Below, piece after piece: positions 16,536 through 19,331 of a DNA stretch of 64,000 nt; position 1 is the first letter of the stretch, and every line of letters begins with the position of its first letter. This DNA comes from Arthrobacter sp. zg-Y844. GTDB lineage: Bacteria; Actinomycetota; Actinomycetes; Actinomycetales; Micrococcaceae. Location of the stretch: assembly GCF_024385465.1 (NCBI RefSeq), contig NZ_JANFLS010000001.1, forward strand, positions 1,054,001 to 1,118,000. Direction: 5' to 3'. Made by a program: the position numbers and the translations under genes. The notes beneath the pieces are model-generated. The model made no database searches and was not told the origin of the DNA. It was given only the letters and a program-made list of their open reading frames with translations.

Positions 16536-17444
16536 CTACCGCGCAGCGGGGGCCGGCACCGCGTAGGCTGCCCGGGTCCACAGGTGGAACAGGGCGTAGG
16601 AGCGCCACGGGCGCCAGGGCTGCGAAAGCAGGGCTGCCTCCCGCCCGCTCCCCACCCCGAGAGCGCGTTTCAACACCAAGTCATCGGCCGGGTAGGCATC
16701 CCGGTCCCCCAGCACCCGTACAGCCAGGTAGTCCGCTGTCCACGGTCCGATTCCGGGCAGGGCCAGCAGGCCGGTGCGCACGGCCGCCGGCTCCGCTCCC
16801 GGGCGCAGCGGCAGGCCACCGGCCACGGCTTCGGCCAGCGCAGAAAGAGTTCGGGCACGGGCATGGGTGATCCGGACCGCGGATTGGATCTCGGCGGCCG
16901 GCACTGCTGCCAGCCGCTCCGCCGTCGGAAAAGCGGACAACCCGTTCGGCCCGGGCTCCCCGAACGCCGCAACCAGCCGGGAGCCGAAGGTCCGGGCGGC
17001 CGCGAGGGATACCTGCTGCCCGAGGACAGTCTGGACGCCGGTTTCAAAGCCGTCCGTGGAGCCGGGCACCCGCAGGCCGGGGTGCCTGTTCACCAGGGGT
17101 TCCAGCAGCTCGAATCGGGAGAGGAACGGGTCCACTACGCCCGGATCAGCATCCAGGTCCAGCCAGGTCCGGACCGTTGATATGAGGGCGGCTTCCTCCG
17201 CCGCGGGCAGCGCGGGCAGGTCGAGGACTACTCCGGCGTCCGCCAGGGACACTGCCACGGCGACGGGGGACGAAGCTCCCTCCAGCAACCGCTCGACCGT
17301 AGCGCCGTCGTCCGTCCGGGTAACCCGCTCCAGGCCGGGCACGGCGTGCGCCTGCAGGGCACCGGCGAGCGGTTCCCAGGCGAAGGGGCCGCGGTGCCGG
17401 AGTGGACGCCGCTGCCTGCCTGCCAGGGCCGCCCCCTCGGTCAT
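16536..17444 (-). CDS. alkA: DNA-3-methyladenine glycosylase II (AlkA-like)
   Basis: Base-excision glycosylase of 302 residues removing alkylated purines. The HhH-GPD part (about 120-300) contains TVLGQQVSLAAAR, ALPGIGPWTADYLAVRVLGDRDAYPADDLVL (helix-hairpin-helix plus catalytic Asp region) and WRPWRSYALFHLW, which are AlkA signatures. The ATG overlaps the alkB-like stop (ATGA). It is last in a four-gene operon of ECF sigma factor, ogt, alkB and alkA. The frame stays open far upstream on the same strand, but that extension is the shadow of alkB. Confidence 0.93.
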   Translation of the reverse strand: MTEGAALAGRQRRPLRHRGPFAWEPLAGALQAHAVPGLERVTRTDDGATVERLLEGASSPVAVAVSLADAGVVLDLPALPAAEEAALISTVRTWLDLDADPGVVDPFLSRFELLEPLVNRHPGLRVPGSTDGFETGVQTVLGQQVSLAAARTFGSRLVAAFGEPGPNGLSAFPTAERLAAVPAAEIQSAVRITHARARTLSALAEAVAGGLPLRPGAEPAAVRTGLLALPGIGPWTADYLAVRVLGDRDAYPADDLVLKRALGVGSGREAALLSQPWRPWRSYALFHLWTRAAYAVPAPAAR

Positions 17445-18124
17445 GACAGTCCGGTCATGCGCAGCGTGATGTTGATCCGCCCCGCGGGCAGGCCGGATGC
17501 CGGGTCCGCCGTGCCTGCCAGGGTCCGCGGAACACCGTGGTAGGCGAACCGGGAGGGACCGCCGAAGACAAACAGGTCTCCGGATTCCAGCTCCAAGTCG
17601 GTGTAGGGCCGGGTCCGCGTCTCGGTGTTCCCGAACCGGAAAACGCAGGTGTCCCCGATGCTGATGGATACCACCGGTGCGCTGGATTTCTCGTCCTTGT
17701 CCTGGTGCATGCCCATGTGGGCGCCCTCGGCGTAGTAGTTGATCAGCGCCGTATCGGGGGTGTAGTTCTCCGGCCGGAAATCGTCCCGGGCGTACCCGCC
17801 GTCGGGCTGCCGATAGGCCTCGCGTAGGGCGTCGCGGCCCAGCTCGACCAGCCAGTCCGGCAGCTCGGCAACGCGGCCGCCCCCGACGTCGTCGGCCGTC
17901 CGCGTGTACTTGTAGGGCTGCCAGTGCCAGCCCAGGCATACGGTCTGCACGGACATGGTGTGCCCGCCGGGGAGGACGGCCGCGCGCATGGGAACGGGCC
18001 CGATGGCCCACTGCCGGCAGGCCTGGACAATGCGCTGCTGTTTCTCCGGCGGCAGCCAACCCGGCACATGGACGGCGCCGACGGCGGGTTCGGATCGTTC
18101 GCGGGGAAAGAGGGAGTTGCTCAT
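17441..18124 (-). CDS. alkB: AlkB-type 2-oxoglutarate/Fe(II) dioxygenase
   Basis: DNA/RNA demethylase of 227 residues that oxidatively removes methyl groups such as 1-methyladenine and 3-methylcytosine. The Fe(II) ligands are seen in MGMHQDKDE (HxD) and YHGVPRT (distal His). The 2-oxoglutarate-binding Arg and closing strand are in RINITLRMTG. The nucleotide lid INYYAEGAHMG is present. Start and stop both overlap the neighbours by four bases (ATGA). Confidence 0.95.
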   Translation of the reverse strand: MSNSLFPRERSEPAVGAVHVPGWLPPEKQQRIVQACRQWAIGPVPMRAAVLPGGHTMSVQTVCLGWHWQPYKYTRTADDVGGGRVAELPDWLVELGRDALREAYRQPDGGYARDDFRPENYTPDTALINYYAEGAHMGMHQDKDEKSSAPVVSISIGDTCVFRFGNTETRTRPYTDLELESGDLFVFGGPSRFAYHGVPRTLAGTADPASGLPAGRINITLRMTGLS

Positions 18125-18750
18125 GCGGCGGCTTCCAGGTCGAGGAGGATCTTCTTGGCGGCGGGACCGCCGCGGTAGCCGCCGGTAGTCCCGTCGGAGC
18201 GCAGGACCCGGTGGCAGGGGATGACCAGGGGCAGCGGATTGCGGCCGCAGGCGGTGCCCACAGCCCGGACGGCACCGGGGTTTCCGGTTAGTGCGGCTAT
18301 GCCCGCATACGTGGAGGTGTGCCCGTAACCGATCTGCTGCAGCGCCTGGACCACGGTCCGCCGGTATCCGGCGGTGAGCCGCAGGTCCAGGTCCAGGTCG
18401 AAGCTGCGCCGGGTCCCTTCGAAGTACTCGCGGAGTTGGGCGGCGGGACGGGCCAGGCGCTCCGGAGCCTCGAGGATCCGCGGGCTGATCCGGGTGCTGA
18501 GGTCCTGCAGCACGGTATCCACCCCTTCGCATTCGAACGCGACCCGGACCAGGCCGGCGTCGGTGGCGGCAAGGATGAGCCGGCCCACGGGACTGTCGAT
18601 GACGGTGTAGGCAACGTCCAGCAGCCCGGCTAACCCGGCTCCTGCGGCCAGGCGGGAATGCAGGGCGGCAAGGACCGCGCCCTCGCGGGGGTCGGGGTCC
18701 AGGAGCCCGGCACTGGAGGGGCCGGCGTCGGTGGTCTCAAAGGATGCCAT
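18121..18750 (-). CDS. ogt: Methylated-DNA--protein-cysteine methyltransferase
   Basis: Suicide O6-alkylguanine repair protein of 209 residues. The C-terminal domain carries the active-site motif IPCHRV preceded by RAVGTACGRNPLPLV and followed by GTTGGYRGG. The helix-turn-helix part contains YGHTSTYAGIAALTGNPGAVRAVG. The N-terminal extension is about 35 residues longer than a minimal Ogt and looks disordered. GAGGAGG before the ATG at 18750 fixes the start, which lies 14 bases inside the end of the sigma factor gene. No Ada-type regulatory domain is present, so induction would need the sigma factor or another regulator. Confidence 0.95.
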   Translation of the reverse strand: MASFETTDAGPSSAGLLDPDPREGAVLAALHSRLAAGAGLAGLLDVAYTVIDSPVGRLILAATDAGLVRVAFECEGVDTVLQDLSTRISPRILEAPERLARPAAQLREYFEGTRRSFDLDLDLRLTAGYRRTVVQALQQIGYGHTSTYAGIAALTGNPGAVRAVGTACGRNPLPLVIPCHRVLRSDGTTGGYRGGPAAKKILLDLEAAA

Positions 18751-19216
18751 GGCGGTCCTCCTCATACAGGGTTCGTAGTTTCTTGATCCCGTCTGCCGCG
18801 GAGCGGCGGCAGGCGGCTTCGCTGCCGCCGAGCAGCCGGGCCACTTCGGCATACGGGAGCCCGGCGAGGTGATGGTACGCGAGCGCCTCGCGCTGGCGGA
18901 CCGGCAGGGTTTTCAGGGCCGACCACAGTCCGTCGGTGTCCACCTGCGGTGCCCTCACCGGTTCGGGGACTTCGTCCACCGGAACCGGGTTTCGGGCGGC
19001 GGAACGGTGCTGGTCCACGGCCTTCCGCTTGGCTATGGTCACCAACCAGGCCTGGACGTTGGCGCCCTCGGGCAGGTCCGGGTAGGCGCCCAGGGCGGCG
19101 AGGAACGTTTCGGACCACGCATCTTCGGCCTGGTCCGGGCCCACGACGGCACGGCAGACGCGCAGCACGGACGGGCCGTGTTCGCGGACAATCTGCTCAA
19201 AGGGTTTCACTTCCAC
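18737..19216 (-). CDS. ECF-type sigma-70 family sigma factor
   Basis: 159-residue two-domain sigma factor. Region 2 (about 5-75) contains GPDQAEDAWSETFLAALGA and VQAWLVTIAKRKAVDQHR. Region 4 (about 95-150) has LPVRQREALAYHHLAGLPYAEVARLLGGSEAACRRSAADGI. The start is a GTG at 19216, or possibly the in-frame GTG at 19210. It leads an operon with three DNA alkylation repair genes and no anti-sigma gene is adjacent, so control may be by expression level or by an unlinked factor (inference). No GGAAC/CGTC-type autoregulated promoter was seen upstream. Confidence 0.9.
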   Translation of the reverse strand: MEVKPFEQIVREHGPSVLRVCRAVVGPDQAEDAWSETFLAALGAYPDLPEGANVQAWLVTIAKRKAVDQHRSAARNPVPVDEVPEPVRAPQVDTDGLWSALKTLPVRQREALAYHHLAGLPYAEVARLLGGSEAACRRSAADGIKKLRTLYEEDRHGIL

Positions 19217-19331
19217 ATACGGTAGACGTTTTCCGCGCTCCGTTTGTGAGCCGCCGGGTCAAGAAAGTTTCCCGCGTCCGACGGCGGTGGCTAGACTTCC
19301 CTCTACGTCGCAGATCAAAGGAGATCACCCC

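Follow-up and report, generated by a model that had tools for sequence, protein, structure and literature searches.

A sigma factor-headed alkylation repair operon of Arthrobacter sp. zg-Y844 with Ogt as its candidate sensor and anti-sigma factor

A four-gene alkylation repair operon headed by an ECF sigma factor

We examined a predicted alkylation repair operon in a window of 64,000 nucleotides (the whole stretch analyzed) from Arthrobacter sp. zg-Y844 (assembly GCF_024385465.1, contig NZ_JANFLS010000001.1, positions 1,054,001 to 1,118,000). Its four genes lie on the minus strand. The leading gene (18737..19216, GTG start, stop at 18737) encodes an extracytoplasmic function (ECF) sigma factor of 159 amino acids with regions 2 and 4 only and no C-terminal extension; Pfam placed Sigma70_r2 at residues 9 to 75 and Sigma70_r4_2 at residues 97 to 147. 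It is followed by ogt, encoding an O6-alkylguanine-DNA alkyltransferase that is extended at its N terminus (18121..18750, 209 amino acids; Pfam Methyltransf_1N and DNA_binding_1), by alkB, encoding a 2-oxoglutarate/Fe(II) DNA dioxygenase (17441..18124, 227 amino acids; 2OG-FeII_Oxy_2), and by alkA, encoding 3-methyladenine DNA glycosylase 2 (16536..17444, 302 amino acids; AlkA_N and HhH-GPD). For each of the last three genes, the start was set at the first ATG found where the preceding gene ends, and longer open frames exist for all three. The overlaps were 14 bases for sigma/ogt, 4 for ogt/alkB, and 4 for alkB/alkA, in agreement with the 4 to 14 bases given by the sequence-only reading, an earlier note on this DNA. 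The sigma70-ECF and ogt superfamily models of NCBIfam exceeded their own cutoffs, while the AlkA (PRK10308) and AlkB models matched yet fell under their equivalog cutoffs. The window's Ogt contains PCHR, which we take to be the active-site motif of this family, as do all 103 of 103 sigma-linked Ogts. No anti-sigma domain and no Ada zinc or AraC domain was detected by Pfam in the window's Ogt. The operon is limited to these four genes because a DUF1304 gene (plus strand) converges beyond alkA and an acyl-CoA ligase gene (plus strand) diverges before the sigma gene; a further extension of the operon was ruled out by these neighbors.

The sigma-ogt pair is the conserved core of the operon

The distribution of the sigma factor was surveyed in 198 genomes of the order, with a best E value of ≤1e-15 defining a carrier. 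Sixty-six genomes qualified, among them G194 (1.7e-19) and G125 (8.8e-16). A comparison of coordinates by eye placed an Ogt match directly downstream of the sigma gene, on the same contig, in 62 of the 66 carriers, which ruled out a chance adjacency of the two genes. Of the other four, G046, G088, and G125 had the pieces on separate contigs, located at their ends or close to them. The sigma and ogt genes of G015 were on different contigs; this genome is a draft of 450 contigs, and the split pair could reflect the assembly. The pair was also detected more widely in the class and on plasmid records of Tsukamurella, Rhodococcus, and Arthrobacter. Exactly 4 bases were common to the sigma and ogt genes in 84 of 102 pairs (59 of 72 plus 25 of a further 30), a count that was favored because, wherever more than one ogt start was possible, the start closest to such an overlap was taken. 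The 14-base overlap was present in the window and in four close relatives.

The repair genes downstream of ogt were much less constant. Among 104 loci (a set in which L062, with its sigma gene at a contig end, was skipped and L097 has no sigma gene), similarity to the window's proteins within the stretches covered identified a same-strand AlkB beside the pair in 16 and an AlkA in 12, chiefly in Arthrobacter. The sequence-only reading had proposed a search for the same gene order in related genomes; the sigma-ogt part of this order recurs across the order and class, but alkB and alkA do so at only these low frequencies. Because of these counts, sigma-ogt is the core of the system and alkB-alkA is a lineage-specific addition.

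Conserved neighbors were then sought around 72 loci, with frames lying over sigma-ogt excluded. The flanks available were short, with a median of 547 bases before the pair and ∼3.5 kb after it, and within them no gene family was present in at least five genera except for a second ogt, which occurred near the pair in 12 of the 72 loci and in 8 genera. A hidden anti-sigma gene within these short flanks was thereby rejected. The second ogt is of the ordinary type and stands ahead of the sigma gene (ogt2-sigma-ogt) in L014, L017, L056, L057, L076, and L080, as well as in L085, L095, L099, L100, and L203:3477-5061.

A promoter motif with fixed spacing precedes the pair

A predicted promoter was located upstream of the operon (19224..19250, minus strand), consisting of CTCAC (19250-19246), a 17-bp spacer, and CGTCT (19228-19224), with the GTG of the sigma gene 7 bases further on, so that the operon is probably transcribed without a leader. 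The sequence-only reading had also suggested looking for a shared promoter motif in related genomes, and this was borne out: CTCAC, 17 bp, and CG(T/A)(C/T) headed 100 of the 104 loci, standing before the sigma gene in 95 and before a second ogt in 5. This count was tuned on the data, as an initial pattern with A, C, or G before CTCAC matched 79 of the 104 loci and any base was allowed after the missed loci had been viewed; the control for the relaxed form was 12 matches in 2103 control windows. The spacer was 17 bases in all 100 loci, even though 16 to 18 were permitted. The four loci lacking the motif were L056, L076, L080, and L191; in the first three, a second ogt lies at the edge of the stretch covered, and the motif of L056 is found just outside this stretch (G081:C1:21205). 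In several of the ogt2-sigma-ogt loci, the motif precedes ogt2 and not the sigma gene, and it also precedes ogt2 in L138.

The first in-frame start codon occurred 6 to 9 bases past CG(T/A)(C/T) in 83 of 95 loci and at exactly 8 bases in 67 of them, and for this reason the transcripts probably have little or no leader. As the motif precedes the operon in nearly all loci, usually at this short distance from a start codon, the sigma factor very probably drives its own operon from the CTCAC-N17-CGTCT promoter. A stricter pattern applied to the 198 genomes produced 87 matches versus 31 for the reversed pattern. Inspection by eye indicated that 31 of the 87 head a sigma gene; others stand before ogt2 of G081 and G076, the split ogt of G015, and a second ogt in G126. 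A single repeat of G049 accounts for eight matches through its copies, and the remaining number is not far above the control expectation. In G015, where the pair is split, the motif was present before both the sigma gene and ogt. The strongest evidence that the sigma factor would read this motif is that the motif tracks the sigma gene, heads a leading ogt2, and marks both halves of the split pair.

Several other genes were found behind the motif. RecO follows it in G117 and G183 (L140 and L145) of one genus, where Pfam was run on the G117 fragment, and an orthologous short-chain dehydrogenase follows it in two distant families (L133, L134, L170, L173, and L174). An EamA-like transporter stands behind a motif-like site in L053 and L058, with an extra ogt nearby and ∼6 kb from the sigma operon.

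Main-clade sigma-linked Ogt proteins carry an N-terminal extension

The window's Ogt has an N-terminal extension of 45 residues (residues 1 to 45; 18616..18750, minus strand) ahead of the ordinary Ogt fold, as delimited by alignments to solved Ogts and by profile separation. Solved Ogts that match at full length align from residue 44 to 47 of this protein and others match the C-terminal half only; the exceptions are three chains of fusion constructs, whose alignments begin at residues 23, 32, and 35. The closest solved chains, 4BHB and 4WXD, belong to the same family and are presumably from Mycobacterium tuberculosis. Unlike the window's protein, this solved Ogt of 165 residues aligns from residue 46 and has no extension.

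In 87 main-clade linked Ogts, 35 to 103 residues precede the anchor proline (residue 54 of the window's Ogt), and the pattern L..LH.RLA..A...LLDVAY recurs in this segment. Its conserved L..LH.RLA..A part falls in residues 21 to 40 (18631..18690, minus strand), which form a helix in a low-confidence AlphaFold2 model. An extension profile mostly gave 13 to 45 bits for linked main-clade Ogts and 28.0 for the split G015 Ogt, versus 3.8 bits or less for paralogous or ordinary Ogts; because the linked rows were also the training set of this profile, their high scores are partly built in. Main-clade orthologs from genomes without a close sigma factor were also compared, and two of these four, L188 and L189, have no extension. 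In a tree of Ogt bodies, in which many forks are weak and the plasmid Ogts L203, L204, and L205 are marked unlinked though they stand behind a sigma gene, the sigma-less rows fell within or beside the linked clade, which suggests that the sigma gene may have been lost secondarily from these genomes. A divergent sigma-Ogt subgroup was noted in L101-L111 and L191-L194, nearly all with the same motif and often with an N terminus of the form RPPVLP..DVSY.

Relation of the sigma factor to Ada

The Ada zinc domain (PF02805) had no match in the genome of strain zg-Y844, consistent with the earlier statement that an Ada sensor is absent. Among the 198 genomes, a cutoff of an E value of ≤1e-20 identified 73 Ada carriers, with the weaker matches of G046, G100, G118, and G160 left out. 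The sigma factor and Ada were found together in 10 genomes, the sigma factor only in 56, Ada only in 63, and neither in 69 (Fisher p = 4.8e-6, with genomes that are not independent). Within five mixed genera, the two cooccurred less often than expected (Mantel-Haenszel p = 0.0009; permutation p = 0.002). This avoidance was carried by genera g11, g16, and g18, in which 0 of 37 genomes had both, and the main exception was g40, with both in all 6 genomes.

Short Ada zinc hits, covering profile positions 20 to 62-65, were detected in eight genomes (a count that leaves out fragmentary hits in G100). All eight genomes have the sigma factor, and three of the eight hits are preceded by the motif. Stand-alone zinc domains behind the motif occur in G059, G182, and G159 (L208, L209, and L141, minus strand). 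A stand-alone zinc domain was also observed in the sigma-ogt operon of a Rhodococcus plasmid (L204:5894-6193). All of these domains are without the regulator part and have the look of Ada proteins demoted to service in a regulon under the sigma factor.

Comparison with known systems

The Ada adaptive response consists of ada-alkB and alkA in Escherichia coli and adaA-adaB in Bacillus. The operon described here shares with it the Ogt/AlkB/AlkA repair set, an apparent self-amplification, and a suicide methyltransferase as a possible sensor, but the operon and its genome have no Ada zinc domain match and a sigma factor is in control. Sigma/anti-sigma operons of the CnrH-CnrY type encode a small anti-sigma domain; 4cxf, which we take to be a CnrH chain, gave a weak match to the window's sigma factor (E value, 1.8e-4). 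The two systems are alike in having a conserved partner directly behind the sigma gene with an overlap and an operon that is probably self-transcribed, and they differ in that the partner here repairs DNA and has no known anti-sigma domain.

The sigma factor group ECF122 was reportedly named in Casas-Pastor et al. 2021. In the parts of a 2022 review that deal with this group (PMC8999054), 6-O-methylguanine DNA methyltransferases are given as conserved neighbors, no cognate anti-sigma factor is assigned, the mechanism is described as unknown, and the actinobacterial representative is from Cellulomonas sp. Root930. The window's sigma factor fits ECF122 by context, as it consists of just regions 2 and 4, lies beside ogt, and has no anti-sigma gene in the neighborhood, and both have a conserved methyltransferase neighbor and an actinobacterial setting. 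Unlike in the catalogued unit, alkB and alkA come after ogt in the window, and those parts of the review give no promoter, Ogt extension, or alkB-alkA. The description of a sigma-headed ogt-alkB-alkA operon in the sequence-only reading was correct, but the sigma-Ogt unit within it had already been catalogued. In the full-text literature searched, "ECF122" occurred in PMC8999054 only and none of the papers listed treated an ECF sigma factor as a regulator of the alkylation response; in PMC8103513, the whole words alkyl, methylguanine, Ogt, and Ada were absent, and DNA repair came up in one passage. As far as this literature goes, the sigma-Ogt pair is already known; what this analysis adds is its promoter, the Ogt extension, its relation to Ada, and the operon form with alkB-alkA.

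A proposed Ada-independent response and its alternatives

Taken together, these findings led us to propose, with moderate confidence, that the operon mediates an Ada-independent, autoregulated adaptive response to alkylation through an ECF122-type sigma factor, with Ogt most likely being both the sensor and the anti-sigma factor. The sigma factor would transcribe its own operon from a near-leaderless promoter, resulting in self-amplification. Such a self-transcribed sigma factor needs a brake, and since Ogt is the only protein widely conserved beside it within the flanks covered, Ogt is the obvious anti-sigma candidate. The absence of an anti-sigma gene in the sequence-only reading therefore held in that none lies beside the operon, but it may be wrong in substance, as the presumably coupled Ogt with its extension could fill this role.

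Through presumed translational coupling, the overlapping gene would supply Ogt in a roughly fixed ratio to the sigma factor, which Ogt most likely would keep inactive through its extra N-terminal segment. Transfer of the alkyl group from O6-alkylguanine onto the active-site cysteine would consume Ogt and change its shape, and the resulting drop in free Ogt would release the sigma factor for production of sigma, ogt, alkB, and alkA. Synthesis would continue until unmodified Ogt again outnumbered the sigma factor. In the simplest scheme, free Ogt would bind the sigma factor and alkylated Ogt would not. We infer the use of this promoter by the sigma factor, the binding of Ogt, the release by alkylation, and the induction of the operon by alkylation; what the sequences themselves display is the gene order, the overlaps, a conserved promoter-like motif, the extension of linked Ogts, an intact active site, and neither an Ada domain match nor an anti-sigma gene close by. 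The full version, in which a repair enzyme acts as its own anti-sigma factor, with the sigma factor held by the added N-terminal helix of unmodified Ogt and freed by suicide repair, is advanced only tentatively.

Several observations weigh against this proposal. A plain target-gene role for Ogt accounts for the promoter data equally well, and gene overlaps are frequent in GC-rich operons. Linked main-clade Ogt L092 scored just 3.1 bits on the extension profile, sigma-less orthologs L187 (11.8 bits) and L097 (16.7 bits) retain the extension, and the divergent subgroup, 16 of the 103 linked Ogts, has a more distant Ogt body and a different N terminus. The AlphaFold2 model, which was based on 12 Arthrobacter sequences and contains the helix at residues 21 to 40, had a mean predicted local distance difference test score of 39.9, too poor to serve as structural evidence. 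In the genome of strain zg-Y844, the motif produced 3 matches versus 4 for the reversed control, no wider regulon was apparent beyond the operon, and the two motif sites outside it have no clear gene start behind them. The short-chain dehydrogenase and the EamA transporter have no known tie to alkylation. The earlier view that a sigma factor runs the response in place of Ada was partly supported, by its position at the head of the operon, by the avoidance of Ada among genomes and in the mixed genera, and by the motif before other repair genes; at the genus level, however, the test of any sigma factor versus any Ada was not significant (p = 0.30), and ten genomes have both.

A less probable explanation, which we regard as somewhat doubtful, is that the sigma factor runs the repair operon from the same promoter while Ogt is merely a target gene and the brake lies elsewhere, in an unlinked anti-sigma factor, in proteolysis, or in low basal expression combined with autoregulation; the overlap and extension would then aid Ogt expression or folding. 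The promoter evidence fits this explanation, alkB and alkA are obvious cargo, and L097 and L187 keep their extension without a sigma factor. It does not readily explain why Ogt is the sole gene kept with the sigma factor across genera, almost always directly behind it and with 4 bases in common, or why L188 and L189 are without both sigma factor and extension. Activation in the manner of Ada, with alkylated Ogt binding the sigma factor or the promoter and turning transcription on, has a precedent in methylated Ada and would suit the apparent functional replacement of Ada, but we consider it improbable: the window's Ogt has neither an Ada zinc nor an AraC domain, and ECF sigma factors are mostly controlled by release from an inhibitor, as the abstract of PMC8999054 also states. 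The suggestion that the sigma factor responds to another stress (oxidative, envelope, or general) with the repair genes as passengers can draw on the motif before the short-chain dehydrogenase, RecO, and the EamA-like transporter. It appears very improbable, as ogt, ogt2, AlkB, AlkA, a Tag-type glycosylase, Oxygenase-NA, and the Ada zinc domain recur with the sigma factor in separate lineages.

Ada had no match in 121 of the 198 genomes. The locus offers a fixed-spacing promoter, a candidate sensor within the operon, and a candidate sigma-binding segment in a compact arrangement of four genes. If the repair enzyme doubled as anti-sigma factor, damage would be gauged directly by a suicide enzyme; the cell would read damage as depletion of a repair protein, a titration-type adaptive response without Ada.

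Additional operon arrangements

In one genus, a motif site recurred ahead of a conserved stretch whose long frame is seemingly noncoding (L139, L142, L143, L146, and L148). A Tag-type methyladenine glycosylase was observed downstream of sigma-ogt in three genera (L056, L059:1697-2293, and L095, of which L059 was scanned). The plasmid operons were arranged as ogt-sigma-ogt-oxygenase-alkB in Tsukamurella and as sigma-ogt-oxygenase-Ada zinc domain in Rhodococcus. The oxygenase after ogt in two plasmid copies (L203:5058-5765 and L204:5118-5873) was Oxygenase-NA (PF09859), which brings a second family of dioxygenases into this repair context.

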